In this document: positions 1,584-61,220 of the stretch, in pieces | Position numbering within the stretch: the stretch's first letter is position 1 | Layout of the letters: every line of letters starts with the position of its first letter | Assembly: GCF_000212355.1 (NCBI RefSeq) | Contig: NC_015496.1 | Coordinates: forward strand, 2,182,501 to 2,246,500 | Origin: Dokdonia sp. 4H-3-7-5 | GTDB lineage: Bacteria > Bacteroidota > Bacteroidia > Flavobacteriales > Flavobacteriaceae | DNA: 64,000 nt | Reading direction: 5' to 3' | Program-made: the position numbers and the translations under genes | The notes under the pieces: generated by a model | Seen by the model: the letters and a program-made list of their open reading frames with translations, nothing else | The model's database searches: none | Told to the model about the DNA's origin: nothing

Positions 1584-1601
1584 ACGCTTTCGCGAAAGCG
1601 T
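1584..1601. repeat. palindrome ACGCTTTCGCGAAAGCGT (18 bp, perfect)
   Basis: Intergenic copy between the divergent mpl and ftsY genes, about 200 bases before the ftsY start. Confidence 0.9.
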
Positions 1602-1740
1602 AACTGTAACCTTTGTAATCATTATTAATACTGTAGTTTTCGAGTGATTTTAAATGTTGATCTACATAATTTATTTAAAAAATTGACAATCAGCAGTGTA
1701 GTCTGTAAGGTGACATAACGGCATTCTCCCTAAAAGGCAC

Positions 1741-1748
1741 TATTTTTG
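1741..1748 (+). promoter_or_regulatory. -7 promoter element of ftsY (TATTTTTG)
   Basis: Matches the Bacteroidota -7 consensus TAnnTTTG and lies 39 bases before the ftsY start. No clear -33 TTTG is visible at the usual distance. The rest of the 295-base gap between mpl and ftsY holds only the palindrome at 1584. Confidence 0.55.
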
Positions 1749-1786
1749 TCTAACCGACACTAGACTAGAAAACCGCCAATAGAATT

Positions 1787-2740
1787 ATGAGCTTCTTCAA
1801 AAAAATATTTAGTAAAGAAAAAAAAGAAACCCTTGATAAAGGTTTAGAGAAAACAAAGACGAGCTTCTTTGATAAGATGAGTAAGGCAGTTGCTGGAAAA
1901 TCTAAGGTAGATGATGATGTTCTAGATAATCTTGAAGAAGTACTTGTAACGAGTGATGTGGGTGTAAAAACTACGCTTAAAGTAATTACTCGTATCGAGG
2001 AGCGTGTGTCACGTGATAAGTATGTAGGTACAGATGAGCTTAACCAGATCTTACGTGAGGAAATCGCTGGCTTACTAAGCGAGACTAACGTAGGAAACGC
2101 TACAGAATTTGAAATCCCTAAAGGTACCAAGCCACACGTAATTATGGTGGTAGGTGTAAATGGGGTAGGAAAAACTACAACGATAGGTAAACTTGCATAT
2201 CAATTTAAAAAGCAAGGACTTAAAGTAGTCTTAGGAGCTGCAGATACGTTTAGAGCAGCAGCTATAGATCAATTGCAAGTGTGGGCAGATCGAGTAGATG
2301 TTCCTATTGTAAAACAACAAATGGGTAGTGATCCAGCCTCAGTAGCGTTTGACGCACTAGAGAGTGGTGTAAATCAAAACGCAGATGTGATCATTATTGA
2401 TACTGCAGGGAGATTACATAATAAGGTAAATTTAATGAACGAGCTTACTAAGGTAAAGCGCGTGATGCAAAAAGTAGTGGGAGATGCTCCTCACGATGTG
2501 CTTCTTGTACTTGATGGTTCTACGGGTCAAAACGCTTTTGAACAAGCAAAACAATTTACGGCAGCTACAGAGGTGACTTCGCTTGCTGTGACAAAACTAG
2601 ATGGTACTGCCAAAGGTGGTGTGGTTATAGGAATTTCTGATCAGTTTCAAATCCCTGTAAAATACATTGGAGTAGGAGAAGGTATCGAAGATTTGCAAGT
2701 TTTCAACAAAGTGGAGTTTGTAGATAGTTTCTTTAAATAA
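1787..2740 (+). CDS. ftsY: signal recognition particle receptor FtsY
   Basis: FtsY is the membrane-associated GTPase that docks SRP-ribosome complexes at the translocon. The protein has 317 residues with a short charged N-terminal region (1-40), a helical N domain and a G domain. The G1 motif GVNGVGKTT is at 123-131, DTFRAAA at 153-159, DTAGR at 205-209 and TKLDGTAKGG near 270, in the order expected for SRP GTPases. The short acidic A domain is normal for Bacteroidota. It heads a run of plus-strand genes that includes rimO, an arrangement common in flavobacteria. Confidence 0.97.
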   Translation: MSFFKKIFSKEKKETLDKGLEKTKTSFFDKMSKAVAGKSKVDDDVLDNLEEVLVTSDVGVKTTLKVITRIEERVSRDKYVGTDELNQILREEIAGLLSETNVGNATEFEIPKGTKPHVIMVVGVNGVGKTTTIGKLAYQFKKQGLKVVLGAADTFRAAAIDQLQVWADRVDVPIVKQQMGSDPASVAFDALESGVNQNADVIIIDTAGRLHNKVNLMNELTKVKRVMQKVVGDAPHDVLLVLDGSTGQNAFEQAKQFTAATEVTSLAVTKLDGTAKGGVVIGISDQFQIPVKYIGVGEGIEDLQVFNKVEFVDSFFK

Positions 2741-2753
2741 GTCGTTATTTTTT

Positions 2754-3086
2754 ATGAAACTCGTTCCTAGGTGGCTTCCAGAACTTACGTTGCGCACTTT
2801 ACGAGTTGTCGTCATTGGTTTGATGTTACTTAACGTGTGGAGCGTTTATACTGCACATGCTGCAGTAAGAAGCGAACTTGTGCCTAAGTATCTAGCTCAG
2901 TACTCGGCTTTTCCTCATTATATTTTTATTGCCTTTTATAGTCTCATCATATTCTATATATGGAGAATCCTTAAGGGAGCACTAGCTTCAGAAAATTGGT
3001 GGGTGCCAGTAATTGCAGTGATTACATTTGAATCTACTAAGTTTTTTATCTACGGTTTCTTGATGTGGGTTAATCCTTTTGGATAA
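2754..3086 (+). CDS. small membrane protein of unknown function
   Basis: This 110-residue protein starts 13 bases after ftsY and is probably cotranscribed. Three hydrophobic segments are visible at about 18-38, 53-73 and 84-107, joined by short loops with positive charges at the N-terminal side, so the N-terminus is likely inside. No catalytic motif is recognised. It is not a known partner of FtsY as far as I can tell; the position may only reflect operon layout. Confidence 0.7.
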   Translation: MKLVPRWLPELTLRTLRVVVIGLMLLNVWSVYTAHAAVRSELVPKYLAQYSAFPHYIFIAFYSLIIFYIWRILKGALASENWWVPVIAVITFESTKFFIYGFLMWVNPFG

Positions 3087-3123
3087 ACCTTTTTGTATTT
3101 TTAGAGGACTATAAAAATGCACT

Positions 3124-4806
3124 ATGAAATACCTTTATACTCTCGCGCTCGCAACGGCGCTTTTTTCTTGTAAAAACGAAGCTCCTACAACCACAATAGA
3201 TACAACTCCTAGATATGTGTGGGAAGCTTATAAAGACTCTCTAGTTATTGCAAAAACGCAAGCCCTTGAAAATAGCAGAATGCACCTCAAGCTTGTAAAT
3301 GCAAAGGGGCTCGATAAAAATGATATTTGGAAAGATCTTAATGGGGAGATAAATACGCTTTCGCGAAAGCGTATCTCAGAAATCTCTCCGCTTATTTTAG
3401 AACAAGATATCCCGACCATCCAGAAGCACGCTAAAAATGGAGATTTCTCGTATGAGGAACTTACGCTATTTTATTTAAATCGCATAGCTCGTTTTGAAAG
3501 TGATAACGACTTAGCACTTAACGGAGTCATCTCACTCAATAAAGAAGCGGTACAAGAAGCAAGAGCACTGGATAATAAAGATAAATCTACCATAGATGAA
3601 TATTCTGTGTACGGAATGCCTATACTTTTAAAAGATAATATAGGAGCAGCTGGTATGATTACGACTGCAGGATCTGTAGCGCTTGCAAATAATAACGCAG
3701 GAGATGCATTTATTACAAAAAGGCTTAAGGAAGAAAATGCCATTATACTTGGTAAGGCCAACTTGAGTGAGTGGGCATACTTTTTATGTACAGGTTGTCC
3801 TGTAGGTTATAGTGCTGTGGGTGGGCAAACTATTAACCCATACGGTCGTTTGCAATTTGAGTCGGGAGGTTCAAGTTCTGGATCAGGGGTGAGTGTAGCA
3901 GCAAATTATGCAGTAGCCGCCATAGGATCAGAAACGAGTGGATCTATATTATCACCTTCTAGCCAAAATAATCTGGTTGGGCTTAAACCTACCATCGGTC
4001 TTTTAAGCCGTAGCGGGATTGTGCCTATTTCTAGTCACTTAGACACTCCAGGGCCTATGACGAAGAACGTAGTCGATAATGCAATCCTATTACAAGCACT
4101 CACTGGTAAAGATGCTGCAGATTCTTATAGCTACACTTCTTCTGATGATTATGTATCTGCTGTAAAAAATGGAAGTCTTGAAGGAAAATATCTTGGTGTT
4201 ATAAAAGGTTATTTACAAGACAGTACGTATGCTGCGGCAATTAATAAACTTAAGGAAACGAAAGCAACACTCGTTGAGGTGGATATGGAGCGAGTTAATA
4301 TGCCAGGTTTTCTGTCTATCTTAAATATAGATATGAAAAATGATCTGCCTGCTTACTATGATGCTGAGGTAGCCCCATCTGTGAAAAATAGAAATATAGA
4401 GGAGCTTATCACATTTAATAATCAAGATAGCCTTACGCGTATTCCATACGGGCAACAGCTTTTTAAAGGTATCGTTGCAGATAGCACAACCGCTGTAGAG
4501 CTTAAAGCAATTAAGGAAAACCTTATGGAGGTTACTCAAGCATATTTTCAAGACGCACTGAGTAAGCACCCCGAAGCTGATGGTCAACTAGACGCCATAC
4601 TTTCCATAAATAATTATGATGCAGGTTATGCCGCAGCAGCACACTATCCAGCACTCACAATACCTATGGGCTTCACCGCACAAGGCGAGCCTAAGGGAAT
4701 TACCATCATCACTCCATTTAAGCAGGAAGAAGTGATTTACAATATTGCAGTAGGTGTAGAGAGTACACTTAAAGCTAGAACGTTACCAGAAGGATATCAG
4801 GAATAA
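3124..4806 (+). CDS. amidase-signature family lipoprotein
   Basis: A serine amidase of 560 residues that hydrolyses C-N amide bonds; the substrate is not predictable. It opens with a lipoprotein signal (MKYLYTLALATALFSC, Cys16). The amidase-signature Ser-cisSer-Lys triad is visible: Lys170 in PILLKDNIG, the cis-Ser in the Gly/Ser-rich GGSSSGSG at 248-255, and the nucleophile Ser274 in GSETSGS. This is longer than GatA, and the lipoprotein signal argues against a role in tRNA amidation; degradation of peptides or amides outside the inner membrane is more likely. A terminator follows at once. One copy of the palindrome is embedded at codons for NTLSRKR. Confidence 0.88.
   Translation: MKYLYTLALATALFSCKNEAPTTTIDTTPRYVWEAYKDSLVIAKTQALENSRMHLKLVNAKGLDKNDIWKDLNGEINTLSRKRISEISPLILEQDIPTIQKHAKNGDFSYEELTLFYLNRIARFESDNDLALNGVISLNKEAVQEARALDNKDKSTIDEYSVYGMPILLKDNIGAAGMITTAGSVALANNNAGDAFITKRLKEENAIILGKANLSEWAYFLCTGCPVGYSAVGGQTINPYGRLQFESGGSSSGSGVSVAANYAVAAIGSETSGSILSPSSQNNLVGLKPTIGLLSRSGIVPISSHLDTPGPMTKNVVDNAILLQALTGKDAADSYSYTSSDDYVSAVKNGSLEGKYLGVIKGYLQDSTYAAAINKLKETKATLVEVDMERVNMPGFLSILNIDMKNDLPAYYDAEVAPSVKNRNIEELITFNNQDSLTRIPYGQQLFKGIVADSTTAVELKAIKENLMEVTQAYFQDALSKHPEADGQLDAILSINNYDAGYAAAAHYPALTIPMGFTAQGEPKGITIITPFKQEEVIYNIAVGVESTLKARTLPEGYQE
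3355..3372. repeat. palindrome ACGCTTTCGCGAAAGCGT (18 bp) inside the amidase gene
   Basis: Coding copy, read in the phase that gives Thr-Leu-Ser-Arg-Lys-Arg. Confidence 0.9.
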
Positions 4807-4966: not shown

Positions 4967-6319
4967 ATGCGTACAAAATCATTAAAAAAGAATAAGATAA
5001 ACGTAGTAACTCTAGGTTGCTCAAAAAACGTTTATGACAGTGAGGTCTTAATGGGCCAGCTCAAAGCAAATGAGATGGATGTTGCTCACGAGGAAGAAGG
5101 TAACATCGTTGTGATCAACACTTGTGGTTTTATAGACAATGCAAAAGAGGAGTCTGTAAACACTATTCTTGAGTATGTAAAGCAAAAGGAAGAAGGAGAA
5201 GTTGATAAGGTGTTTGTAACGGGATGTTTATCTGAGCGTTATAAGCCGGATCTTCAAAAGGAAATTCCAGATGTAGATCAGTATTTTGGAACAACAGAAT
5301 TACCTGGACTACTTAAAGCACTTGGGGCAGATTATAAACATGAACTTATAGGGGAGCGTATCACAACTACTCCAAAAAACTATGCATACTTAAAAATAGC
5401 CGAGGGCTGTGACCGTCCTTGTTCTTTCTGTGCGATCCCTTTAATGAGAGGAAAGCATAAATCAAAATCAATAGAGCACTTAGTTATTGAAGCAAAAAAA
5501 CTTGCTGCAAATGGAGTAACGGAGTTGATTCTTATTGCGCAAGATCTTACGTATTACGGTCTTGATTTATACAAAAAACGAAACCTTGCAGAGCTTCTTG
5601 AAAACCTTGTTCAAGTAGAAGGAATCGAGTGGATTCGTTTGCATTATGCATTTCCTTCTGGATTCCCAGTTGATGTGCTTGACGTGATGAACCGCGAGCC
5701 TAAGGTGTGTAATTATATCGATATACCACTGCAGCATATTGCAGATCATATTTTGAAGTCTATGCGTCGTGGTACTACGATGGAGAAGACGAATGCGTTG
5801 TTAGACCGCTTTCGCGAAAGCGTACCAGGAATGACCATAAGAACTACGCTTATTGTTGGGTACCCTGGAGAAACAGAAGAAGATTTCCAACTCATGAAGC
5901 AATGGGTAAAAGATCAACGTTTTGAGCGTTTAGGATGTTTTACATATTCTCATGAGGAAAATACACACGCGTTTAACTTAGAAGACGATGTACCTGAAGA
6001 AGTGAAAATGGATCGTGCCAATCAGATTATGGAGATCCAATCTCAAATCTCTTGGGAGCTTAACCAGCAAAAGATAGGGAAGGAGTTTAAAATTGTTGTA
6101 GATCGTAAAGAAGGAAACTACTTTATAGGTCGTACAGAATTTGATTCTCCAGATGTGGATAACGAAGTACTTGTAGACGCAACAAAGTTCTACTTAAAAA
6201 CAGGAGACTACGCAATGGTAACTATCACAGAGGCCGAAGATTTTGACCTTTATGCAGAACCACTTGTAGCTTTAGAGCGACCACAAGCACTACACGCAAA
6301 ACGTGCTACTAAAAAATAA
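4967..6319 (+). CDS. rimO: ribosomal protein S12 methylthiotransferase RimO
   Basis: A radical SAM enzyme that places a methylthio group on Asp88 of ribosomal protein S12. With the start at 4967 it has 450 residues: an N-terminal UPF0004 domain (VVTLGCSKNVYDSE, cluster cysteines including NTCGF and TGCLS), the radical-SAM CDRPCSFC motif (CxxxCxxC) with IPLMRGKHKS, and a C-terminal TRAM domain. The GCSKNVYDSE signature and S12-type motif favour RimO over MiaB. The start was chosen because promoter and terminator signals lie upstream of 4967. A palindrome copy encodes RFRESV. Confidence 0.95.
   Translation: MRTKSLKKNKINVVTLGCSKNVYDSEVLMGQLKANEMDVAHEEEGNIVVINTCGFIDNAKEESVNTILEYVKQKEEGEVDKVFVTGCLSERYKPDLQKEIPDVDQYFGTTELPGLLKALGADYKHELIGERITTTPKNYAYLKIAEGCDRPCSFCAIPLMRGKHKSKSIEHLVIEAKKLAANGVTELILIAQDLTYYGLDLYKKRNLAELLENLVQVEGIEWIRLHYAFPSGFPVDVLDVMNREPKVCNYIDIPLQHIADHILKSMRRGTTMEKTNALLDRFRESVPGMTIRTTLIVGYPGETEEDFQLMKQWVKDQRFERLGCFTYSHEENTHAFNLEDDVPEEVKMDRANQIMEIQSQISWELNQQKIGKEFKIVVDRKEGNYFIGRTEFDSPDVDNEVLVDATKFYLKTGDYAMVTITEAEDFDLYAEPLVALERPQALHAKRATKK
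5807..5822. repeat. palindrome CGCTTTCGCGAAAGCG (16 bp) inside rimO
   Basis: Coding copy, read in the Phe-Arg-Glu-Ser phase. Confidence 0.9.
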
Positions 6320-8276: not shown

Positions 8277-10766
8277 TTACAACCTATACTTTCCATTATT
8301 AGTCAAGAAAATAGCATTGGCAAAAAATAACTTTCCGTTGTGCCAGAAAGCTCTAAAAAGAGGGTCGTCTACCATGTAGATAACGCTACCGCGTCCCATG
8401 CGTTCTTCTCCAAAAATAAGAGATTTGCTAAGTTTTGCTTTGGCATTATCACCCGCAAATCCTGCAACATTAGTTACTTCTTCTGGAATGTAAGACACGT
8501 TGAAACCTTTGTCCAGATATGAATAAGAGTTGCTTCCTAGTTTTAAAGAGTAGTAGGTGTCATCGTACCCAAAAGCCATAGGATGTGTAGGGTCTACTTT
8601 GGTTTTAAAGATAGAACCTGTTATAAAGTTGGTGGTACTTGCGTTCTCGCGCTCAGCATATGGAATGAGATTATCATCGCTCGAAGTATCGTCGTCGTCA
8701 CTTGAATTGCTGTTGCGTTTTAAGTTAAAACCAGATTTTCCAGCAAAACTTCCTACGGCATTCGCTATCGCGATTACTTTTCCGCCACCGCGCACAAAAT
8801 CTTTTACTTTATCTAGTGTACTATCATTAAGCACACTTCCATACCAGCCGCTAGGCATTACAAGTACATCAAATTCTTCTAGGTCAATGCGACCTAAATT
8901 ACCAGTATCAATCGAGGTAGCAGGATATCCTAGTGTTTGCTCAAAGAAATACCAAGTGGCTCCATAACTTAATGATGAGGTTCCTTCTCCTTTCAATAAT
9001 GCAATTTTCGGCGGATTGATAAGTTTCATAGATGATGATCCAAAGTCAGGACCAGAGGTCGAAAATGAAGTATTCGTTGCGTTAAGGATTCTGTTATGCT
9101 TTCGCGAAAGCGTATTTACAACCTCATTAAAATCTGTACGTCCTTTGTTATCACTTTTTGTAATTACTAGCGATCCTCGTTCATAAGAGATTCCATTATT
9201 TGCAAAAGGCTTTTCTGTAAAACGTACTTTAATTCCTTCTTTTAATAGCGCAGCAAGTAGCTTTGCATCTTCAAGGCTATTCCACTTTGCGATATAACCT
9301 GCAGCGTTTGCATTCAGGTTTGAGTTGTTTGTGGTAAAAGGATTTGCCGTATTTGCAGTAACGAGTGACGTGCTTGCTACAGCTTTGAGGCCATAAGCAT
9401 GCGGTAAACTCCAGGCAGTAATGTCATAAGTAAGTGGTGTGCTCAGTTTTGCATCTGGCTCAAGAAGCGCTTTTACCATTTTACCTTTTGGCTGATTAGT
9501 ACTCACCACCATTGCCATGTCATAACTCATGCTTCCTTGACCGTTTGAGGTATAAGAAAATCCTGAGGCTTTCCCGTTTGATGAGAAGCCATATTTGATC
9601 TCGTGCCTGTCTAGCAGTGTCGCAAGTTCTTTAAGATTGTCTAGATTTCCAGAAAGTACGTAGCTTTTATATTTAAGGCCGCTTGTATTAAAGTAGTCTT
9701 TAAATTGGGTGTTAAGCTTACCAGCATTTGCAGAGGATATTTCTATAGTAGAAAGTCCTGTGGTTTTGTGATGTGCTACACGATCTACAAGGGTAAGTTC
9801 AAAACCTTGATCTGTATCTATTCCTAATCCTGCACGACCGTGACCGGCTTGCTCGTAGGTCATCCCAATTGCACCCATAAACATAGGGTACGTATCTCCG
9901 TACGATGGATAGAGTAAGTCAAAACTCTCTCCGGTAAAAAATAGCCAACCTTCTTTATCAAAATAGCGAGCATGGTTTTTTCCTATTTCTACTTGGAATT
10001 CTTGTTGCCAGTCTGTGATGATCTCATTAAAAGGCTCTGCTGCTGGAGCAAAGTAATAAGGGCTATTAATACCTTGCTCGTGGAAATCTACATGCACGTG
10101 TGGCATCCACTTATTATATACTTTTAATCGTTGCTGTGATTCTACTTGAGAAGCCCAAGCCCAATCGCGGTTTAGGTCAAAAAGGTAGTGATTAGGTCTT
10201 CCTCCCGGCCATGGCTCATCGTGTTCTGCAGCTACTTGAGCTGGATCGTAAGGTGTAGATGCCACTTGGTTAAACCAGTTTGCATAGCGGTCACGTCCAT
10301 CTGGATTTACACAAGGATCTATAATAACCACAGTGTTTTCCAGCCAATCTTTTTTTGTAGTCACAAGCTCATACAATGTAGCCATAGATGCCTCTGTTGA
10401 GGAAGCTTCATTACCATGGACATTATAAGAAAGCCATACAATCGCCTTATCTGCCGCACCAGAATTACCAGAGGCAATACCTGTTTGCTCAAGATTTGCT
10501 TTACGTATGTTTTCTAGATTGTTGTGATTTGCTGCTGTTGTGATAACTGCATACGTAAGCGGTCTGCGCTCATTTGTTTTACCATATGTTTGGTAGGTTA
10601 CTAGGTCACTATTTTCTGCAACATGCTCAAAGTAGCGCACTACGTCTGCGTGGCGTGAGAACTGTGTTCCTATCTCGTACCCCAGAAATTCTGATGGAGA
10701 TTGTACTTGTGCAGTCAGTAATGTTGTGAGAAATAAGGCGACAAAAAGGCTGTAGATTCTGAGCAT
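8277..10766 (-). CDS. M14-family zinc carboxypeptidase, secreted
   Basis: An 829-residue secreted metallopeptidase. The start at 10766 gives a normal signal peptide (MLRIYSLFVALFLTTLLTA-Q); an ATG 16 codons upstream gives an implausible N-terminus. Zinc-site features of M14 are visible: NVHGNEASSTEAS (His and Glu ligands), NPDGRDRY, DLNRDWAW and VDFHEQG (third ligand His), with a TYEQAG segment for the catalytic Glu. The C-terminal third looks like a ThuA/GATase-like domain (IALLKGEG, FDVLVMPSGWYG) with an Asp-rich insert (SSDDDDTSSDD). It probably trims peptides in the periplasm or outside. A palindrome copy encodes TLSRKH. Confidence 0.88.
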   Translation of the reverse strand: MLRIYSLFVALFLTTLLTAQVQSPSEFLGYEIGTQFSRHADVVRYFEHVAENSDLVTYQTYGKTNERRPLTYAVITTAANHNNLENIRKANLEQTGIASGNSGAADKAIVWLSYNVHGNEASSTEASMATLYELVTTKKDWLENTVVIIDPCVNPDGRDRYANWFNQVASTPYDPAQVAAEHDEPWPGGRPNHYLFDLNRDWAWASQVESQQRLKVYNKWMPHVHVDFHEQGINSPYYFAPAAEPFNEIITDWQQEFQVEIGKNHARYFDKEGWLFFTGESFDLLYPSYGDTYPMFMGAIGMTYEQAGHGRAGLGIDTDQGFELTLVDRVAHHKTTGLSTIEISSANAGKLNTQFKDYFNTSGLKYKSYVLSGNLDNLKELATLLDRHEIKYGFSSNGKASGFSYTSNGQGSMSYDMAMVVSTNQPKGKMVKALLEPDAKLSTPLTYDITAWSLPHAYGLKAVASTSLVTANTANPFTTNNSNLNANAAGYIAKWNSLEDAKLLAALLKEGIKVRFTEKPFANNGISYERGSLVITKSDNKGRTDFNEVVNTLSRKHNRILNATNTSFSTSGPDFGSSSMKLINPPKIALLKGEGTSSLSYGATWYFFEQTLGYPATSIDTGNLGRIDLEEFDVLVMPSGWYGSVLNDSTLDKVKDFVRGGGKVIAIANAVGSFAGKSGFNLKRNSNSSDDDDTSSDDNLIPYAERENASTTNFITGSIFKTKVDPTHPMAFGYDDTYYSLKLGSNSYSYLDKGFNVSYIPEEVTNVAGFAGDNAKAKLSKSLIFGEERMGRGSVIYMVDDPLFRAFWHNGKLFFANAIFLTNNGKYRL
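9098..9111. repeat. palindrome GCTTTCGCGAAAGC (14 bp) inside the M14 peptidase gene
   Basis: Coding copy, read as Leu-Ser-Arg-Lys on the minus strand. Confidence 0.9.
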
Positions 10767-10887: not shown

Positions 10888-12483
10888 ATGCCAACCGACT
10901 GTCTGCCGTACCGTGAAACTGGGTATTTTTCTAATCTAATCACTAACTATCTAGATCAAGAAGAAGCACTTAAGCCCTTTTATCACAGATTTCCTACCGC
11001 AGATAATCTTATTAAACAGGCAGAAGAGAAGGGTCAATTTTTTAGTCCGCTTTCGCGAAAGCGTTTATATGATTCCCTCATCGCGCAATATAAAAGTACA
11101 AACACCTCTGCCGAGACGCAGCTCAATCTAGAGCATCTTGCCAGTGAAAATACGTTTACCATTACCACAGGGCACCAGCTCAATTTATTTACGGGGCCGC
11201 TCTATTTTTTATATAAAATTATCTCTGTGATTAACCTCTGCAAGGAGCTTAAAGAGAAAGATCCAGACCGCAATTATGTGCCTATTTACTGGATGGCGAC
11301 AGAGGATCACGATTTTGACGAGATTAACTACTTCAATTTTCAAGGTAAAAAAGTACAGTGGAATCGTGAGGACGGTGGCGCCGTAGGCGAACTATCAACC
11401 GATGGGCTGCCTGAGGTACTAGCATTATTTAAAACACAGCTCGGGACTTCTAGAAATGCGGAGTACCTCTCAAAACTTTTTAGTGATGCCTACCTCAATC
11501 ACGATAATCTGGCAGATGCAACGCGCTATCTAGGTAACGAGCTTTTTGGTGAGTACGGCCTTGTCATTGTAGATGGTAACGACGCGGGACTTAAAGAATT
11601 ATTTGCTCCTTATGTACAACGAGAATTGCTAGAGGGCGTGTCGCACGCAAAGGTGACACAGCAAACCGAGCAGCTCACTGCGCTAGGCTACCCAGAGCAA
11701 GTGCACCCTCGTGAGATTAACTTGTTTTACATTACAAAAGGCATCCGTGAGCGCATTATCAAGGTGGATGATATGTATGTGGTAAATGATACAGATATCC
11801 GCTTTCGCGAAAATGAGATACTCAACGAGCTTGCTAATCATCCAGAACGGTTCTCGCCTAACGCCTTGCTGAGACCACTTTTTCAAGAAGTGATTTTGCC
11901 GAATCTTTGTTACATAGGTGGAGGCGGAGAGCTGGCGTACTGGTTCCAGCTTAAAACATATTTTGAAGAAGTAGGAGTTCCATTTCCAGCATTACTACTT
12001 CGTAACTCAGTATTAATACGTACAGAAAAACAACGTACAAAGGCAGAAAATCTAGGCGTGTCGTTGCCAAATTTATTTTTGAAACAAAATGAACTCATTA
12101 ACCGAAAAGTGCGTGCCATCTCAAATATAGAGATAGACTTCTCTGCACAACGCAGCTTCTTAAAAGAGCAGTTTAAAGCAATGCACTTACTAGCCGAAGA
12201 GACAGACGCTAGTTTTATAGGAGCCGTAAAAGCTCAAGAAGTAAAACAACTCAAAGGCTTAGAAAACTTAGAGAGTAGATTGCTACGTGCACAAAAGCGA
12301 AAGTTAAGTGATCACGTACAACGTCTAGTAGATTTACAAAACGAAGTTTTCCCAATGCAAAGCCTACAAGAAAGAAATACCAACTTCTCACAGTTTTATC
12401 TAGAATTTGGCGAGCAACTCATCCCTGAGTTAGTAAATGCTCTTGAGCCGCTAGGTGGCGAGTTTACGGTGGTTACTTTGTAG
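10888..12483 (+). CDS. bshC: bacillithiol synthesis cysteine-adding enzyme BshC
   Basis: BshC catalyses, or is thought to catalyse, the last step of bacillithiol synthesis, addition of cysteine to GlcN-malate. The protein has 531 residues, the usual size. Typical BshC stretches are present: FTITTGHQLNLFTGPLYFLYKII near residues 90-112, the YWMATEDHDFDEIN segment that forms the Rossmann active site, GGGGELAYW near 350, and a C-terminal coiled coil (about 430-500). Presence of BshC suggests that the cell uses bacillithiol as low-molecular-weight thiol. No other bsh gene is in the window. It carries one perfect palindrome (SPLSRKR) and one partial copy (RFREN). Confidence 0.93.
   Translation: MPTDCLPYRETGYFSNLITNYLDQEEALKPFYHRFPTADNLIKQAEEKGQFFSPLSRKRLYDSLIAQYKSTNTSAETQLNLEHLASENTFTITTGHQLNLFTGPLYFLYKIISVINLCKELKEKDPDRNYVPIYWMATEDHDFDEINYFNFQGKKVQWNREDGGAVGELSTDGLPEVLALFKTQLGTSRNAEYLSKLFSDAYLNHDNLADATRYLGNELFGEYGLVIVDGNDAGLKELFAPYVQRELLEGVSHAKVTQQTEQLTALGYPEQVHPREINLFYITKGIRERIIKVDDMYVVNDTDIRFRENEILNELANHPERFSPNALLRPLFQEVILPNLCYIGGGGELAYWFQLKTYFEEVGVPFPALLLRNSVLIRTEKQRTKAENLGVSLPNLFLKQNELINRKVRAISNIEIDFSAQRSFLKEQFKAMHLLAEETDASFIGAVKAQEVKQLKGLENLESRLLRAQKRKLSDHVQRLVDLQNEVFPMQSLQERNTNFSQFYLEFGEQLIPELVNALEPLGGEFTVVTL
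11049..11064. repeat. palindrome CGCTTTCGCGAAAGCG (16 bp) inside bshC
   Basis: Coding copy, read as Leu-Ser-Arg-Lys. Confidence 0.9.
11801..11812. repeat. partial palindrome GCTTTCGCGAAA inside bshC
   Basis: The right arm is broken after AAA. Read as Phe-Arg-Glu, a different phase from the other copy in the same gene. Confidence 0.6.
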
Positions 12484-13567: not shown

Positions 13568-14020
13568 CTATAAATTCAACTGCCTTATCCCCTCATAAGC
13601 TACAATTCCAACGGCATTTGCGAGATTTAAACTTCTGATGTGCTCGCTAAATAATGGGATTTTATAAAGTTGGTCGGGGTGTTTTTCGGTGATTTCTTTT
13701 GGGAGTCCTTTAGATTCTTTTCCAAAGACGAGAAATAGGTCCTCTTCAAAAGGAATGTCATAATGTGACTTTGTGCCGTGACTTGAGAGAAAAGCCATTT
13801 TCGCGAAAGCGTTCTTATTAAAAAAGTCTTCTGTATTATCATAATACTGAACGTCTAGATGCTGCCAGTAGTCAAGACCTGCGCGTTTAAGGCGGGTGTC
13901 GTCTATCTCAAAACCAAAGGGTTTTACAAGGTGCAACTTGCAGCCAGAACCGAGGGCAAGCCTACCTATGTTACCTGTGTTGTTTGGGATTTCTGGATTG
14001 ATGAGTACAATATTGAGCAT
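13568..14020 (-). CDS. trmL: tRNA (cytidine/uridine-2'-O-)-methyltransferase TrmL
   Basis: A SPOUT-class enzyme that 2'-O-methylates the wobble base (position 34) of tRNA-Leu isoacceptors. The 150 residues start with MLNIVLINPEIPNNTGNIGRLALG and contain HLVKPFGFEIDD, the knot motif FGKESKGLP and the closing segment IRSLNLANAVGIVAYEGIRQ. All are characteristic of TrmL, and the length is normal. A partial palindrome copy gives NAFAKMAF within the protein. Confidence 0.93.
   Translation of the reverse strand: MLNIVLINPEIPNNTGNIGRLALGSGCKLHLVKPFGFEIDDTRLKRAGLDYWQHLDVQYYDNTEDFFNKNAFAKMAFLSSHGTKSHYDIPFEEDLFLVFGKESKGLPKEITEKHPDQLYKIPLFSEHIRSLNLANAVGIVAYEGIRQLNL
13799..13811. repeat. partial palindrome TTTCGCGAAAGCG inside trmL
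   Basis: The left arm is incomplete (ATTT instead of CGCTTT). Read as Ala-Phe-Ala-Lys on the minus strand. Confidence 0.6.
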
Positions 14021-18776: not shown

Positions 18777-18790
18777 GCTTTCGCGAAAGC
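18777..18790. repeat. palindrome GCTTTCGCGAAAGC (14 bp), intergenic
   Basis: Lies in the gap between crtZ and the epimerase gene, right beside the crtZ terminator but not part of it. Confidence 0.9.
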
Positions 18791-22630: not shown

Positions 22631-22644
22631 GCTTTCGCGAAAGC
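22631..22644. repeat. palindrome GCTTTCGCGAAAGC (14 bp), intergenic
   Basis: Lies about 100 bases upstream of merR, between it and the terminator of the tRNA-Leu gene. Confidence 0.9.
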
Positions 22645-39667: not shown

Positions 39668-39681
39668 GCTTTCGCGAAAGC
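39668..39681. repeat. palindrome GCTTTCGCGAAAGC (14 bp) between trpB and trpA
   Basis: Lies 6 bases after the trpB stop. Confidence 0.9.
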
Positions 39682-40900: not shown

Positions 40901-41548
40901 TTATGAGCGAGACGGCGTAAACGCTGCGATCGCTGCTTTAAACTTTTTCAATTTTTCTATATTCTTCATTCCTGGCTTATCTTCAAACTTGCTATTTACA
41001 TCAAGTGCGATAATAGGCAAATCTGTCGCCAGTATTTCTGTTACTTTTTCTACTTCTTCTAGTCCTATGCCACCGCTTAAAATAATAGGTGTTTGAGACG
41101 TGTAATCTTTTAGTACACACCAGTCAAAGGTGTATCCATTTCCTCCTTTTTCTTTTCCCTTGGTGTCAAAAAGGAAGCCATCCACAATTCCTTCATAAGG
41201 CTTAAGTTTTTCAAAATCAAAGTTGTCTTTTATTCCAAAAACTTTCCAAATGTTGAGGTCTCGACTGCGCTCGACCAGATAACCTTGAAGTTCTTTTATG
41301 TACTCAGGCGACTCACTCCCGTGCAACTGGATTACGTTGAGGTTGTGCTGTATTATTTTCGCTTTCGCGAAAGCAATATCTGCATCTGCAAAAACCCCTA
41401 CGCGGTCAATTCCCTCCGGTAATTCTGGAATCGCTAGGTCGCCAAAATCTCGTTTGCTTTTCTCATAAAATATAAACCCAAGATAGTCTGGCTGCAATGC
41501 AGCGACCTCTTGTGTATTATATTTCATGCCGCATATTTTGATTTTCAT
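40901..41548 (-). CDS. trpF: phosphoribosylanthranilate isomerase
   Basis: It catalyses the Amadori rearrangement of PRA to CdRP. The 215-residue TIM barrel starts [10 protein letters not shown] (catalytic Cys in KICGMK) and has [31 protein letters not shown] and the phosphate site [11 protein letters not shown] palindrome copy encodes AFAKAKI. It lies 10 bases before trpB. Confidence 0.95.
41361..41374. repeat. palindrome GCTTTCGCGAAAGC (14 bp) inside trpF
   Basis: Coding copy, read as Ala-Phe-Ala-Lys on the minus strand. Confidence 0.9.
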
Positions 41549-44856: not shown

Positions 44857-46254
44857 CTATATGTCTTCTGCGATATCAAGTGCTTTATTAAGCGCTCCTA
44901 ATTTGTTATAAACTTCTTGTAATTCCTTGGCTGGGTCACTTCCTGATACTACTCCAGCGCCTGCTTGCCAGTGTAGCGTGTGATTTTTACTTAAAAATGA
45001 ACGAATGATAATTGCGTGATTAAAATTACCGTAAAAATCCATAAAACCTATCGCTCCACCGTAGAAGGTTCTGTTGCGGTTTTCATATTTTTCGAGAAGC
45101 TGCATAGCCATGTGCTTTGGTGCTCCGCTTAAGGTTCCTGCAGGGAAAGTATCCGCCACTACTTGTAGTGTATTACTGTCCTCATGCATTTGCCCAGTTA
45201 CTTTACTCACAAGGTGAATCACGTGAGAGAAAAACTGCACCTCACGATAGGTCTCTACCGTAACGTCATGTCCATTTCTTGATAGGTCGTTGCGAGCAAG
45301 ATCTACAAGCATAACGTGCTCTGAGTTTTCTTTTTCGTCTTTTGCAAGTTCTTTGGCAAGGATTGCATCTTGCTCATCATTGCCTGTTCTTTTGAAGGTT
45401 CCGGCAATTGGGTGAATCTCTGCCTTTCTATCTTGCACAATGATTTGTGCCTCTGGTGAAGACCCAAAAATCTTATAATCTCCGTAATCAAAATAGAATA
45501 AGTAAGGAGATGGATTTACACTACGTAGTGCTCTGTATACATTAAACTCATCACCAGTAAACTGCTGAGAGAATCGCTTGCTAGGTACAATCTGGAATAC
45601 ATCACCGCGCTGGCAGTGCTTTTTGCAGGTGTCTACGAGTGCTTTGTAATCTTCGTCTGTAATATTGCTGGTAAGCTCATTATTACGAGCAAACTTATAT
45701 TCGGCAAAGTTTTTTGACTTGAGCATTTGCTCTATCTCCTCAATATTACTTTCTCCAGAAGTATTGTGACAAAATATATGCGCTTCGTTATTAAAATGAT
45801 TGATGGCAATGATATTTTGATACACTGCATAGTAGATATCTGGAATATTCAAATCTTCCTCTTTTTTGGAGATTTTTAGATCCTCAAAGTACTGTACAGA
45901 GTCATACGATAAATAGCCAAACAAGCCATTATTAATGAATTTATGAGCGGTCTTTGAAGATGAGAATGCTTTCGCGAAAGCGTCTAAAACACCCACAACG
46001 TTAGTATCATCTGTAACTGTTATTTCCTCGCTTTTACCATCTGGAAATTGCTGTGTTATGATCCCGTTACCCACTTCTATGGAAGCAATAGGATTGCAAC
46101 AGATGTATGAGAAACTATTATCATTTGCATGATAATCACTACTCTCGAGCAGCAAACTATTAGGAAAACGGTCACGCAACCTTAAGTATACCGAAACTGG
46201 AGTAATGGTGTCTGCCAGAAGGCGTTTTGAGGAAGTTTTTAATTTATATGTCAT
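44857..46254 (-). CDS. trpE: anthranilate synthase component I
   Basis: It makes anthranilate from chorismate. 465 residues with the chorismate-binding domain in the C-terminal half: FQIVPSKRFSQ, SPSPYLFYFDYG, FGSSPEAQIIV, IAGTFKRTGNDEQD, DLARNDLSR and the FPAGTLSGAPKHMAMQLLE and GGAIGFMDFYG blocks. The N-terminal LLESSDYHANDNSFSYI retains the feedback-type LLES element. First structural gene behind the attenuator. A palindrome copy encodes DAFAKAFS. Confidence 0.97.
   Translation of the reverse strand: MTYKLKTSSKRLLADTITPVSVYLRLRDRFPNSLLLESSDYHANDNSFSYICCNPIASIEVGNGIITQQFPDGKSEEITVTDDTNVVGVLDAFAKAFSSSKTAHKFINNGLFGYLSYDSVQYFEDLKISKKEEDLNIPDIYYAVYQNIIAINHFNNEAHIFCHNTSGESNIEEIEQMLKSKNFAEYKFARNNELTSNITDEDYKALVDTCKKHCQRGDVFQIVPSKRFSQQFTGDEFNVYRALRSVNPSPYLFYFDYGDYKIFGSSPEAQIIVQDRKAEIHPIAGTFKRTGNDEQDAILAKELAKDEKENSEHVMLVDLARNDLSRNGHDVTVETYREVQFFSHVIHLVSKVTGQMHEDSNTLQVVADTFPAGTLSGAPKHMAMQLLEKYENRNRTFYGGAIGFMDFYGNFNHAIIIRSFLSKNHTLHWQAGAGVVSGSDPAKELQEVYNKLGALNKALDIAEDI
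45968..45981. repeat. palindrome GCTTTCGCGAAAGC (14 bp) inside trpE
   Basis: Coding copy, read as Ala-Phe-Ala-Lys on the minus strand. Confidence 0.9.
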
Positions 46255-48937: not shown

Positions 48938-50326
48938 ATGATATTACAGCAATTATATACTAAATGTCTAGCTCAAGGAGCTTATTTTATAAGTTCAAAT
49001 GGAGAAGGAGCTATTATAGATCCTCTGCGCGAGGTACAACCGTACCTTGATCTTGCAGCAGAAAATAAGACGACCATTAAGTATATTTTTCTAACTCATT
49101 TTCATGCAGATTTTGTGAGTGGCCAGGTTGATCTTGCAAAAGCTACTGGCGCTACCGTGATTTTAGGACCTAATGCAAAGGCTGGATATGACTATCACAG
49201 CGCGAGTGATGGAGAGATATTTATCTTGGGAGATTTATCTATTACCACCATCCATACGCCAGGTCATACCATGGAGTCTACGTGTTACCTTCTTAAAGAT
49301 AAACAAGGAAAAGAAGAAGCTCTTTTTACAGGGGATACGCTTTTTATAGGTGACGTAGGAAGACCAGATCTCGCTGCTAAAACTGATCTTACAACTCATG
49401 ATCTTGCAGGTCATTTATATGACTCATTACACCATAAGATTGCACCTTTATCTGACGACATTATCATTTATCCTGCACACGGAGCGGGATCTGCTTGCGG
49501 TAAAAACATGAGTAGTGAGACCAGTGATACGCTAGGTAATCAAAAGCAAAATAATTACGCATTTAAGCTCAATAAAGAGGACTTTATTAAAGAGCTCACA
49601 GATGGCTTGACATTTCCGCCGGCTTATTTTCCACATAATGTGGCAATGAATAAGAAGGCAAATACAGATTTTGATACCATTATCAATAGAGGAACAACGG
49701 CTTTGACTCCTGATCAGTTTGAAAAACTGGCAAATGAAAAGGAGGTACTCGTACTTGATACAAGAAGTGTTTTCGCTTTCGCGAAAGCGTCATTACCTCA
49801 AGCTTGGTTTGTAGGATTACAAGGACAGTTTGCACCGTGGATAGGAGCACTCATCGCAGATATTCACCAAAAAATAATCTTTATCGCCGAAGAAGGTACT
49901 GAAGAGGAAGTAGTAACCAGACTTGCGAGAGTAGGTTATGATAATAGTTTAGGATTCTTAGAAGGAGGAGTAGAGGCTTGGGAGCAATCTGGCAGGACGG
50001 TAGTTGCTACAGCAGAAGTAACAGCTCAAGAATTTGTAGATGGTATTGCTACTGGCGATATTAAGAATCCGCTAGATGTACGTAAAGCTGGAGAATATGC
50101 AACAAGTCATATAGAGGGACTGCCACATATGGGTCTAGATGAAGTGCACGTTAATGCGCACACGCTGGAAGCAGGTAATACGTATCACATACATTGCGCA
50201 GGTGGTTATAGATCTCTTATTTATGCATCTATAGCAAAATCATATGGCATAAATAGTGTAGTGAATGTGCTAGGTGGATATGGTGCTATAAAAAAGGCAG
50301 ATACTTCTAGCATTAAATTGACATAA
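48938..50326 (+). CDS. persulfide dioxygenase-rhodanese fusion (CstB/ETHE1-like)
   Basis: 462 residues in three parts. The N-terminal metallo-beta-lactamase part has THFHADF (His54, His56, Asp58), GHTMES (His110), GDTLFIGDVGRPD (Asp133) and YPAHGAG (His181), as in ETHE1-type persulfide dioxygenases. A first rhodanese-like domain (about 250-350) has no catalytic Cys (AEEGTEEEV). The second (about 360-462) has Cys420 in HCAGGYRS. This order matches CstB, which oxidises persulfides to thiosulfate. Two rhodanese genes follow. A palindrome encodes VFAFAKAS in the inactive domain. Confidence 0.88.
   Translation: MILQQLYTKCLAQGAYFISSNGEGAIIDPLREVQPYLDLAAENKTTIKYIFLTHFHADFVSGQVDLAKATGATVILGPNAKAGYDYHSASDGEIFILGDLSITTIHTPGHTMESTCYLLKDKQGKEEALFTGDTLFIGDVGRPDLAAKTDLTTHDLAGHLYDSLHHKIAPLSDDIIIYPAHGAGSACGKNMSSETSDTLGNQKQNNYAFKLNKEDFIKELTDGLTFPPAYFPHNVAMNKKANTDFDTIINRGTTALTPDQFEKLANEKEVLVLDTRSVFAFAKASLPQAWFVGLQGQFAPWIGALIADIHQKIIFIAEEGTEEEVVTRLARVGYDNSLGFLEGGVEAWEQSGRTVVATAEVTAQEFVDGIATGDIKNPLDVRKAGEYATSHIEGLPHMGLDEVHVNAHTLEAGNTYHIHCAGGYRSLIYASIAKSYGINSVVNVLGGYGAIKKADTSSIKLT
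49774..49789. repeat. palindrome CGCTTTCGCGAAAGCG (16 bp) inside the persulfide dioxygenase gene
   Basis: Coding copy, read as Ala-Phe-Ala-Lys. It is the last perfect copy in the window; the next 14 kb have only partial ones. Confidence 0.9.
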
Positions 50327-54887: not shown

Positions 54888-54902
54888 ACGCTTTCGCGAA
54901 AG
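54888..54902. repeat. partial palindrome ACGCTTTCGCGAAAG, intergenic
   Basis: The right arm ends after AAAG (then AAAA). Aside from this and the promoter below, nothing is seen in the 353-base gap 54688-55040. Confidence 0.65.
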
Positions 54903-54951
54903 AAAAACTAAAAGTGTTGGAAATCAAACAAAAAGGATTTAGGAGCTTTTA

Positions 54952-59032: not shown

Positions 59033-59545
59033 CTAGTTGTTTTTATTATTTACTCTAGTTCTTTCCTCAAGAACCGCAGGAGAAGGTATAGGTGCCAGTC
59101 TATGTTTTTCAATCTCCTTTTCGTTTACATTTATTTTTATCTGGAGTTCTTTGATTTCAATAGCTAGGTGCTCTTGATATGCGTTTATCACTTCTTCTTT
59201 TGTTTTATAAACCTTTCCTTGATGTCCTTCTATTCTCAAAAAATCATGTTCATCTATAGAGATTTTAGAAGCAAAATGTTGCTTTATCTCCTTTAAACTA
59301 TTCAGAATAAATTGCCTTTCTAGTTGGTCTACGGTAGTATCGCAATCATTACATGGAGCATTCAATACCCGTGTTGAACAATATTGATTTTCAAAATAAT
59401 CAAGCACATTATTGAGCTTCTCAGATGGTTGAGCGACGGCTTCTGTAGATATCTTAAATGAAACCCCAGGATTTTTTGTTTTCTCACGCTGAGAAAAAGC
59501 TGTGGTTGCGATACATAGTACTAAGAACGTAGTTGTTATTTTCAT
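59033..59545 (-). CDS. secreted protein with C-terminal coiled coil, unknown function
   Basis: The start at 59545 gives a signal peptide (MKITTTFLVLCIATTAFSQ); the ATG 13 codons before is less likely. The 170-residue protein has four cysteines (YCST, APCNDCD) in the first half, and a charged helix of about 45 residues (EVINAYQEHLAIEIKELQIKI...EKEIEKHR) in the second. It lies 4 bases upstream of the antiporter gene and is probably cotranscribed with it. Confidence 0.65.
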   Translation of the reverse strand: MKITTTFLVLCIATTAFSQREKTKNPGVSFKISTEAVAQPSEKLNNVLDYFENQYCSTRVLNAPCNDCDTTVDQLERQFILNSLKEIKQHFASKISIDEHDFLRIEGHQGKVYKTKEEVINAYQEHLAIEIKELQIKINVNEKEIEKHRLAPIPSPAVLEERTRVNNKNN

Positions 59546-59707
59546 AATAATGCAATAGTTAAATGAGTGCTTATAGAATATCAAGTACGTTCAAGAAGCA
59601 TATAATATGGAAAGAAGATACTACTTTTCTGTTTTATCGTTCGTTTTTTTTAATAAGCAGATTGCGTGATAGCTAATATTTAAGAAGTGGTCAGTGCGTC
59701 ACGGCAG

Positions 59708-60589
59708 TTAGTTTTGCTCTATTTCGGTTTCAATAGTGATATCAAATGTTGCACCTGGCGCAAGCGTTTTATAAGAACCTTTTTTAGTGATATCGATACT
59801 TTCATCTTCACTGTCTGGAAGTCCTATCCACGGTTCAATACACACATAATCTGCAGCGGGTTTTGACCATAAAGCAAGGTTAGGATAATCCTTAAAGCGC
59901 ACGATGACTCCTTTCTTTTCATCTTTTTTACGCAGTCGTACCCAGTCATAATTAATGTCTGTAAAGATGAGGGCATCTTCATTGAAAAGCCTTTCTGAGA
60001 GTGGTAAGAGTCCGCCATTAGTTTTGATAGCTCGTTTTTCAGGAGATAATAACCCACTATCTCCTAGCGTGCGCGAGGTAAGATCTAGCGTCTCTGGAAA
60101 TTCAATCACATAATTAGATAGTGCAGTATGCTCATCAAGTGGGCAAGCATAAGCAGTGTGACCACCACAGGCAAAATGCATAGGCACGGTATCATTATTT
60201 GTAACCGTATAGGTCATTAATAATCGATACTCAACAAGGGTAAAGCTTACGCGAAAATGGAACGTATATGGATACTGTCGTAATGTTTCATTATAACTTG
60301 TGAGCGTAAAAGAACAACTAGACGCGTCGTGCTGCTGAAAATCAAGCTGCTCATTATTTCTTATAATTCCATGCTTAGTCATAGCATAGTCTTCGCCATT
60401 AAAAACAATCTTATTCTCCTTAATATTACCAATAGCAGGAAACAACACTGGCGAACTACTTCCCCACACAGAAGGATCTATCTGCCAAATATATTCTTCA
60501 CCAGTCTCCTTATTAATTAAGGAACGTATTTCTGCCCCTTTTGAAGTAATGGTACAGATGAGGTTTTCGTTGTGGATGGTGTGGAGCAT
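59708..60589 (-). CDS. aldose 1-epimerase-like protein
   Basis: 293 residues of the galactose mutarotase-like beta-sandwich: LICTITSKGAEIRSLINKETGEEYIWQ at the start, RKH-like MTKHGIIRN, the His in FACGGHTAYACPL and Glu in CIEPWIGLPDSEDE near the end. It probably interconverts sugar anomers, perhaps a hexose or hexose-6-phosphate. It follows a membrane protein gene by 2 bases. Confidence 0.85.
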   Translation of the reverse strand: MLHTIHNENLICTITSKGAEIRSLINKETGEEYIWQIDPSVWGSSSPVLFPAIGNIKENKIVFNGEDYAMTKHGIIRNNEQLDFQQHDASSCSFTLTSYNETLRQYPYTFHFRVSFTLVEYRLLMTYTVTNNDTVPMHFACGGHTAYACPLDEHTALSNYVIEFPETLDLTSRTLGDSGLLSPEKRAIKTNGGLLPLSERLFNEDALIFTDINYDWVRLRKKDEKKGVIVRFKDYPNLALWSKPAADYVCIEPWIGLPDSEDESIDITKKGSYKTLAPGATFDITIETEIEQN

Positions 60590-60591
60590 GG

Positions 60592-61092
60592 TTACATTTT
60601 TTGTGTTGGATTGTCTATATGTGCATCATCATGATTTTTTACTTCCCAAATTAAGACAATAGCCACGATTAGATATCTAAATATAGGAGCTAATGCCAGG
60701 TTTGCTAGAAGTTGTAAGTTTTCTTTTTTTAGCTCATAGTAGTAGTCAAACTCAGTTGGAAAAGTACTAATCAAAAAACCAGTTCCATAGAAGGATGATA
60801 GAAATTGTAATAGCATAATTATAAAAAATATTGAAATCAAACTAAACAAACATTTCTTACTATTTATGATAATGGATGATTTGATATACTTCGCACATAC
60901 TACTATAGCGATTGTAAAAATAACAGTACCCGTTATTTCAGGCATCCATAAAGAGCTTATCGAATTAGAATTGTAAATTATTAGAAATTGTTCTAGCACA
61001 TACTTGATTAAGTGAGTGAATTCTAAAATTGAGAGTAAACTAAATGCTCCTATTCCTAAGAGGCTTATGAGTGTATGTTTATTTATTTTCAA
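60592..61092 (-). CDS. four-helix membrane protein, unknown function
   Basis: 166 residues with hydrophobic segments at about 8-28, 48-68, 77-100 and 130-155. The start is a TTG at 61092 (reads MKINKHT...); no ATG precedes the first helix. A TACCTTG directly at this spot could also be a promoter -7 box, in which case the true start would be further in. No family recognised. Confidence 0.55.
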   Translation of the reverse strand: MKINKHTLISLLGIGAFSLLSILEFTHLIKYVLEQFLIIYNSNSISSLWMPEITGTVIFTIAIVVCAKYIKSSIIINSKKCLFSLISIFFIIMLLQFLSSFYGTGFLISTFPTEFDYYYELKKENLQLLANLALAPIFRYLIVAIVLIWEVKNHDDAHIDNPTQKM

Positions 61093-61206
61093 GGTAGTGT
61101 TTTTATAAATCTACGTGCTTTCTTTAGGATTTCAACTTTTATTTACAATTTAAATCGGTTGTATCCTCTGTTTATGTGAATGGAGTAGGTGTTGGAGGAA
61201 TCAAGT

Positions 61207-61220
61207 TTTCGCGAAAGCGT
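61207..61220. repeat. partial palindrome TTTCGCGAAAGCGT, intergenic
   Basis: The left arm is incomplete. It lies 130 bases before tldD; nothing else is seen in the 257-base gap. Confidence 0.6.

Follow-up and report, generated by a model that had tools for sequence, protein, structure and literature searches.

A highly iterated palindrome of Dokdonia with two directional units: a possible signal for the exchange of self DNA

Introduction

The described systems that come closest to the element treated here are the uptake sequences of two bacterial families, namely, the DNA uptake sequences (DUS) of Neisseriaceae and the uptake signal sequences (USS) of Pasteurellaceae. USS are one-directional and bear their AT-rich tracts on a single side. 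For Haemophilus, AT-rich sequences are described next to the USS core (PMC7811141). In Simonsiella and Kingella, DUS are described that overlap with dyad symmetry, and pairs of DUS are described as being associated with terminators (PMC3630211). Among highly iterated palindromes, the HIP sequences are tied by Elhai to methyltransferases (PMC4390886). Here we consider the palindromic 14-mer GCTTTCGCGAAAGC, which recurs throughout a stretch of 64,000 nucleotides (the window; positions 2,182,501 to 2,246,500 of contig NC_015496.1) in the flavobacterium Dokdonia sp. 4H-3-7-5 and was first noticed in a preliminary description made from the letters of that window.

This clade-wide iterated palindrome is very probably a signal read by some cell machine. 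What is new here is that each arm of the palindrome carries its own 5′ flank (positions -19 to -5), i.e., that the site is made of directional units, and this directional anatomy with a triplet-phased flank should be the surprising part for specialists.

Abundance and phylogenetic range

The window holds 18 exact copies, compared with 0 in each of 100 dinucleotide shuffles, in line with the expectation of the preliminary description that not one copy would arise by chance. With up to two mismatches allowed there are 23 sites versus 0.15 expected, and hence exactly five near copies, which confirms the 18 perfect and five near copies first listed. A genome-wide count, proposed at the outset as a check, gave 757 copies in the single contig of 3,389,993 bp (one per 4.5 kb, or 223 per Mb) and 0 for the reversed control word, so the copies are not restricted to the window. 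All 18 Dokdonia genomes counted are similarly rich, with 369-905 copies.

In a survey of the family, 80 of 397 genomes had a match; 74 of these had 1-19 copies and six had 408-857. The six comprise two of the same genus (G000, the source genome, and G011), three of g26 and one of g206, the latter two being other genera within the family. Across the phylum, 22 of 395 Bacteroidota genomes had a match, and all except G000 had six or fewer. Over-representation is massive and limited to one clade, a feature by which DUS and USS are recognized. The motif-rich lineages adjoin one another in a RimO tree (93 rows, midpoint root), and one origin of the motif in them is likely, although not proven because the root is a midpoint. 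No description of the 14-mer or of its inner 12-mer CTTTCGCGAAAG was found in open-licence PMC papers, and for that literature the initial remark that no function has been described stands.

Other genera with a long palindrome of their own were sought among 76 loci (L013-L088, mostly 21 kb), and none emerged; GCTTTCGCGAAAGC occurs twice in L074, and one locus has another 12-mer twice. In its 21 kb, L074, from the metagenome-assembled genome 'Cytophagaceae bacterium' SAT51 (GC 44%), contains TTTCGCGAAA four times and the exact 14-mer twice. It lies outside the motif-rich clade, groups with Leeuwenhoekiella aestuarii by RimO, and may represent either another lineage that carries the motif or DNA acquired by transfer. 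In L033 (Arcticiflavibacter luteus), the 12-mer ACGTTAAACGAA, an unrelated repeat, occurs eight times in 21 kb. A plasmid collection had no match for a 7.9-kb piece.

Exactness and conservation between species

A sample of the source genome consisting of the window and 20 other stretches (464 kb, 21 stretches in all) contains 117 exact, 13 one-mismatch and 33 two-mismatch copies. The ratio of exact to exact-plus-one-mismatch copies is 1:1.11; for DUS, 1:1.15 and 1:1.45 are quoted (PMC3630211). The sample has 155 TTTCGCGAAA words, of which 117 are full sites and 38 have one intact GC arm.

Between species (G016, G007, G003 and G004 pooled), the core is 98.5% identical, compared with 77-84%, about 82%, in the 60 bp on each side. 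Conservation well above that of the surrounding DNA is a further mark of DUS and USS, and identities of 97% versus about 85% are given for Neisseria DUS (PMC2397512). Every fully aligned window site is exact in G008 (17/17), G007 (18/18), G016 (13/13), G003 (13/13) and G004 (10/10); one further site is partly aligned in G016 and three in G004, two of the latter being altered. More distant genomes have few aligned sites, and those shared are 2/4 in G011, 1/2 in G010 and 1/3 in G017. Two of the five near copies are kept in their one-armed form in four to five other genomes, and the one at 37216 is kept only in G008. The copies are under purifying selection or drive.

The ratio of one-mismatch to exact copies is 24:229 in Dokdonia, 13:68 in g26, 20:51 in g206 and 18:55 in motif-poor hosts; the higher share in motif-poor hosts, with g206 similar and g26 intermediate, seems as if sites decay where they are not used. 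Only 7 of 51 sites are intergenic in g206, versus 40 of 117 in the source genome (p = 0.008), and 30 of 68 are in g26. The g206 sample (L280-L299, from G222; GC 46%) has 51 exact and 20 one-mismatch copies, few of them intergenic, and weak flanks; this lineage appears to have lost the reader and to be in the course of losing its sites.

Anatomy of the site

Reading outward from the core, the preferred bases are C at -1 (0.81), A at -2 (0.63), T at -3 (0.68) and T at -4 (0.64). Beyond these, from about -19 to -5, the strand entering the core has a C fraction of 0.07 and a G+T fraction of 0.65, versus 0.16 and 0.52 further out, and T peaks at -4, -7, -10 and -13 and more weakly at -16 and -19. 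The period-3 component of the T profile is 17-26 times the mean of 1000 permutations for own sites as well as for those of distant Dokdonia and of g26 (p < 0.001 in each case). The triplet phase is blurred by period 3.5, which is also raised (9-20 times, over 15 positions only), and by period 10, which in g26 is as strong as period 3 (27.8 and 26.5 times, respectively). For hits in motif-poor hosts the values are 4.7 times at period 3 (p = 0.007) and 9.5 times at period 10, and the g206 sites have no period-3 signal in the T profile (p = 0.51). At positions -65 to -45, period 3 stands at 5.0 times in own sites (p = 0.009), 2.7 in distant Dokdonia (p 0.06) and 2.6 in g26 (p 0.07). The phase is present in intergenic Dokdonia sites (n = 76, p < 0.001), so codons are no explanation for it. 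The flank signal was found around own, distant Dokdonia and g26 sites and around hits in motif-poor hosts, whereas this composition was absent around 85 viral-contig copies, most of them chance matches, and around all but one of five control words; the exception, CGCG, which includes the motif itself, gave a trace.

Across 98 sites with a single intact arm (own 38, distant Dokdonia 28, g26 5, g206 15, motif-poor hosts 12), the flank accompanies that arm (p = 2e-5 for base counts and p = 0.006 for a per-site Wilcoxon test; an earlier count of 59 sites gave Wilcoxon p = 0.04), and period 3 has p < 0.001 on the intact-arm side versus 0.15. Because the flank tracks the intact arm, the palindrome consists of two directional units with a common core. 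In each unit, a flank of about 16 nt that is poor in C, rich in G/T and favours T at every third base is followed by TT(A/C)CGCTTTCGCGAAA; two such units on opposite strands share TTTCGCGAAA and form the 14-22 bp palindrome, and a minority of sites has one unit. The lineages differ in dialect: at position -2, the preferred base is A in Dokdonia (0.63 own, 0.59 distant) and C in g26 (0.43), and position -6 differs as well, a comparison of two well-sampled lineages only. Arm-to-arm pairing beyond the core, as in a hairpin, was considered and rejected, since matches scatter around chance over 20 positions with no run that would favour it.

Placement and spacing

By open reading frames (ORFs), eight exact copies of the window are intergenic and ten lie in genes. 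With 8.2% of the window non-coding, eight of 18 is an excess (p = 4e-5), and both the split and the excess reported at first are borne out. Codon composition, which might have explained the genic copies, does not: synonymous-codon shuffles of 65 window ORFs gave a mean of 0.06 copies and a maximum of one (50 shuffles), versus ten observed. In the larger sample, 40 of 117 sites (34%) are intergenic although 92% of the DNA is called coding, an approximately fourfold enrichment (p = 2e-15). The 40 gaps concerned are tandem in 20 cases, divergent in 11 and convergent in nine, as expected (p = 0.73). About two thirds of the copies are in genes, where they occupy all three frames and encode the peptides AFAKA (40), LSRK (25) and FRES (12).

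The fourfold intergenic excess is what one would cite for regarding the sites as remnants of a mobile or REP/MITE-like repeat, or as terminators or regulator boxes. Such an origin can hardly be right, as most copies are genic and use every frame, convergent or divergent gaps are not preferred, and nothing beyond the core and the soft tract next to it is conserved (identity about 0.82 in the flanks); the longer shared, mostly extragenic sequence that marks REP and MITE elements is not seen.

The sites are spread over the whole chromosome, with 1.0-4.0 per 10 kb in the 21 stretches and none of these empty, and the gaps are more even than chance. In the source genome, the first 99 gaps have a coefficient of variation (CV) of 0.72 (P = 5e-5), and four are below 1 kb versus 19.8 expected; for the first 100 places listed in G016, the CV is 0.74 and four are below 1 kb versus 22.9 expected. 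Among the first 100 places listed in each, five gaps exceed 12 kb, three in G000 and two in G016. The two in G016 are mostly giant ORFs of 4,431 and 5,060 aa (L367 1126-14421 and L368 1025-16207), which lie close together in palindrome-free gaps and are each followed by a 318-aa ORF on the same strand. Of the three in G000, one is low in GC and has a NACHT protein, and the others are unremarkable or partly annotated. The former (L364, G000:C1:96901-111100) is 14 kb long, has a GC of 33% and no full palindrome between its ends, encodes NACHT-domain and DUF5655 proteins, and is a possible defence island.

Dyad symmetry, the even first 99 gaps in two genomes, the similar density in the 21 stretches and the strong conservation would suit a site bound by a dimeric DNA-organising protein, an anchor every few kilobases for nucleoid packaging or membrane tethering. 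We consider this unlikely. A strand-specific, C-avoiding, triplet-phased flank of 16 nt is odd for a dimer that binds duplex DNA, and two one-armed window sites are kept in four to five other species. A search for ParB_N found exactly one protein in each of 14 motif-rich genomes and no Noc paralogue; neither the regional distribution nor the additional ParB-family reader expected of Noc, parS or matS systems is seen. As to the nucleoid or segregation motif suggested at first, with no region excluded in the 21 stretches and no second ParB_N protein in the 14 genomes, a Noc- or MatP-like role is unlikely, though another DNA-binding protein is possible.

A possible signal for self-DNA exchange

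We tentatively propose, as a plausible reading about which considerable doubt is in order, that the palindrome is a signal for the exchange of self DNA that works by analogy with the uptake sequences of Neisseriaceae and Pasteurellaceae. The reading is suggested by the upkeep of the copies, their even spacing, the clade limits, the dialect difference and the overlapping directional units. A putative DNA-acquisition or recombination protein would bind the unit, and DNA bearing it would be taken up or recombined more often. Such a bias, acting once per fragment, would keep each copy intact and favour one copy per few kilobases; new copies would arise where they are tolerated, i.e., between genes or as the peptides AFAKA, LSRK and RFRES. 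Riemerella columbina, placed in Flavobacteriaceae, is described as naturally transformable with a preference for its own DNA (PMC7965970). Of the roles offered in the preliminary description, that of a putative uptake motif fits best.

Several observations weigh against this proposal. Known uptake sequences are mostly not palindromic, and we know of no counterpart among them of the triplet phase of the flank. The g206 sites have a weak flank only. An association of inverted pairs with terminators between genes is typical though not defining of DUS, and here there is no excess between convergent genes (nine seen versus 7.2 expected). The motif also sits in mobile DNA: all 16 copies of G108 lie within 78 kb (region L209-L213, G108:C3:20001-120000) with none elsewhere in the host, and pieces of phage-like contigs have three copies in 11 kb (L140) and two in 14 kb (L123), whereas DUS are described as absent from recently acquired genes (PMC2397512). 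Moreover, Flavobacterium johnsoniae was not competent in the test in which R. columbina was, as described in PMC7965970.

The number and exactness of the copies of this 14-bp word imply that one marine clade, to which model proteorhodopsin bacteria belong, has a dedicated reader for it. Should the word govern uptake or recombination, it would account for the way in which these bacteria discriminate between own and foreign DNA and offer a handle for transformation; it would also be a case that evolved independently of the uptake sequences of Neisseriaceae and Pasteurellaceae. As natural half-mutants, the one-armed sites lend themselves to probing the reader.

Copies in mobile DNA

The matches are clustered, and include a pair 933 bp apart, in at least seven genomes that do not belong to the clade (G108, G110, G119, G133, G192, G246 and G318); elsewhere outside the clade, e.g., in G360, they are scattered. 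The region of G108 is called a mobile element because it recurs across genomes, conjugation genes not having been identified. It encodes P-type ATPases, an AcrB-family pump and an outer-membrane efflux protein, together with a 1,086-aa Eco57I/MmeI-like restriction-methylase and a 914-aa protein with an N6_Mtase match. Related stretches (L216, L217, L219-L223 and L228) occur in several flavobacterial genera. Sites kept exactly among those compared are 8/10 in G083, 4/6 in G368, 4/6 in G110, 2/7 in G246 and 2/3 in G176. A reader gene on the element was considered and rejected, the ten ORFs chosen of 89 being metal pumps, the efflux protein, the restriction-methylase and others.

The flank in motif-poor hosts resembles that of g26 (C at -2, G at -6) and not that of Dokdonia; their density of 1.6 per 10 kb is not a fair rate because the stretches were picked for having matches. 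Four viral-contig loci have two to three copies, and both annotated ones, L140 and L123, have phage proteins. In Nonlabens phages, whose host may not carry the motif, there are 0 copies in 70.7 kb.

Candidate readers

As was first suggested, the element is like HIP1 in form, i.e., a highly iterated palindrome, and could then be a word kept by a methyltransferase that recognizes its centre. This is very unlikely. The C5-methylase family PF00145 is absent from eight of 14 motif-rich genomes, the source genome included, PF01555 is above the cut-off in two of the 14 only, and TCGCGA outside the motif occurs 38 times versus 39.1 expected. A 30-genome survey of these two methylase families (others not searched) found no conserved enzyme. 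With the central hexamer at its expected frequency, the methylation motif proposed at the outset is unsupported for the families searched.

A further possibility is a two-way Chi-like recombination hotspot, at which AddAB arriving from either side would stop degrading and load RecA on the 3′-ended strand. On that strand the G/T triplet tract is 5′ of the site, in the place that RecA would occupy, and a palindrome would serve both directions. Each of the 30 genomes searched has the AddAB-type nuclease domain PF12705 (25 with two matches, five with one), and the source genome has an AddA-like gene (UvrD helicase plus PF12705; 1,268,255-1,271,395) and an AddB-like gene (1,274,210-1,276,906). Mobile elements carrying the site would be protected. 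The density of one copy per 4.5 kb is similar to that of Chi in E. coli. The flank also suits RecA in its polarity, its high G/T content and its phase of 3 nt, RecA being described as grouping bases in threes and leaving TGG repeats most slowly (PMC3763553).

We nevertheless regard a Chi-like role as rather doubtful. Known Chi sites are short, 5-8 nt. Of the forward one-armed sites (GCTTTCGCGAAAH), 55 fall in the first half of the chromosome and 63 in the other (p = 0.52), and no polarity is seen, with the terminus assumed opposite dnaA, the GC skew of the 21 stretches not placing it cleanly; the test rests on the forward sites, the reverse ones having been counted (105) and their positions not listed. 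An enzyme of RecBCD/AddAB type is present, whereas an orientation bias with replication is not seen. Relative to the source genome, AddA and AddB are 93-94% identical in one of six other Dokdonia species and 43-60% in the remaining five, yet the site is invariant, and 16 motif-poor genomes have the PF12705 nuclease domain yet 0 copies. AddA and AddB diverge so fast within the genus that a change in them at the clade stem, as co-evolution with the site would suggest, would be hard to recognize. RecA itself is described as nucleating no better on TG-rich or Chi DNA and as least stable on TTT repeats in the account of PMC3763553. In two g26 stretches of 12 kb, L352 (G425) and L353 (G273), an AddB-like gene is present, with neither an AddA-like gene nor the two genes that lie between the AddA/AddB pair in Dokdonia.

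It is also conceivable, if quite improbable, that the palindrome is a two-way recombination signal read as a single strand. Each of its two superposed directional units would then comprise a core recognized by a helicase-nuclease or import machine and a tract that seats a recombinase filament, the 16-nt triplet-phased G/T tract being equal to five to six RecA footprints of 3 nt. If true, the flank of this DNA signal would follow the step size of a recombinase, and the palindrome would be a genome-wide exchange signal in Bacteroidota, where we found none described.

Sites in the window

The sites are listed in Table 1. The palindrome extends over 14 bp in seven of the 18 exact copies, 16 bp in seven, 18 bp in one, 20 bp in one and 22 bp in two, so that 11 reach 16-22 bp and seven stop at 14, in agreement with the first impression that many extend to 16-18 bp. 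The g26 rimO locus L272 has a copy at an offset matching that of 5808..5821. The site at 54890 was probably lost in the source genome, as G008 and G007 have a full site at the same place.

Table 1. Exact and near copies of the palindrome in the window
Position	Strand	Site and context	Palindrome	Other genomes
1586..1599	.	Exact, intergenic	18 bp, ACGCTTTCGCGAAAGCGT	Exact in G008, G016, G007, G003
3357..3370	.	Exact, in amidase-like ORF 3124-4806	22 bp	
5808..5821	.	Exact, in rimO (ORF 4886-6319)	16 bp	Exact in 8/8 Dokdonia regions compared
9098..9111	.	Exact, in ORF 8277-10814	14 bp	
11049..11062	.	Exact, in bshC (ORF 10888-12483)	16 bp	
11801..11814	+	One-armed, GCTTTCGCGAAAAT		Same in G008, G016, G007, G003; altered in G011, G004
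13797..13810	-	One-armed, ATTTTCGCGAAAGC		Core and arm same in G008, G016, G007, G003, G011; altered in G004
18044..18057	.	Exact, in ORF 17743-18735	16 bp	
18777..18790	.	Exact, intergenic	16 bp	
22631..22644	.	Exact, intergenic	14 bp	
25966..25979	.	Exact, intergenic, convergent genes	16 bp	
27927..27940	.	Exact, intergenic	20 bp	
31295..31308	.	Exact, in ORF 30562-32349	16 bp	
32395..32408	.	Exact, intergenic	22 bp, TTACGCTTTCGCGAAAGCGTAA, the commonest base at each position	
35219..35232	.	Exact, intergenic	14 bp	
37216..37229	+	One-armed, GCTTTCGCGAAAAA		Kept in G008; altered in G016, G007, G003
39668..39681	.	Exact, intergenic, just downstream of trpB (ORF 39688-40890, minus)	14 bp	
41361..41374	.	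Exact, in ORF 40901-41548	14 bp	
42326..42339	.	Exact, in ORF 41985-42761	14 bp	
45968..45981	.	Exact, in trpE-like ORF 44857-46254	14 bp	
49775..49788	.	Exact, in ORF 48938-50326	16 bp	
54890..54903	+	Near copy, GCTTTCGCGAAAGA, 1 mismatch		Full site at same place in G008, G007
61205..61218	-	Near copy, GTTTTCGCGAAAGC, 1 mismatch, one-armed		Not alignable in six genomes compared

Comparison with known systems

The Dokdonia word and DUS are alike in being clade-specific, present in hundreds to thousands of copies and conserved far above background; both are tolerated in genes and enriched where permitted, the dialects of DUS have a possible parallel in the difference between Dokdonia and g26, and some DUS genera have overlapping dyad units. 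The Dokdonia word differs in being longer (14-22 bp), mostly a full dyad and sparser (about 1 per 4.5 kb), in having a soft 16-nt triplet-phased flank, and in its presence in mobile elements and in another phylum. With USS it shares a core with soft AT-rich flanking sequence and, as described for Haemophilus, a relatively even distribution (PMC7811141), whereas the Dokdonia tract is strand-specific (enriched in G and T, depleted in C) and core and tract come in back-to-back pairs.

HIP1 is likewise a highly iterated palindrome of unknown use, but it is 8 bp long, is given at 1000-2000 per Mb (PMC4390886) and is tied to methylases, compared with 223 per Mb and no conserved PF00145 or PF01555 methylase for the Dokdonia word. 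Chi sites also have G/T-rich DNA nearby; the Dokdonia word, in contrast, is palindromic and at least 14 bp long, and no replication polarity is seen in its one-armed copies. Finally, the 18-nt palindrome described from Caldithrix abyssi is, like the present one, a dispersed palindromic word of unknown use; its 38 exact copies are judged intergenic and strand-biased (PMC5317091), as against 757 copies here, about two thirds of them genic.

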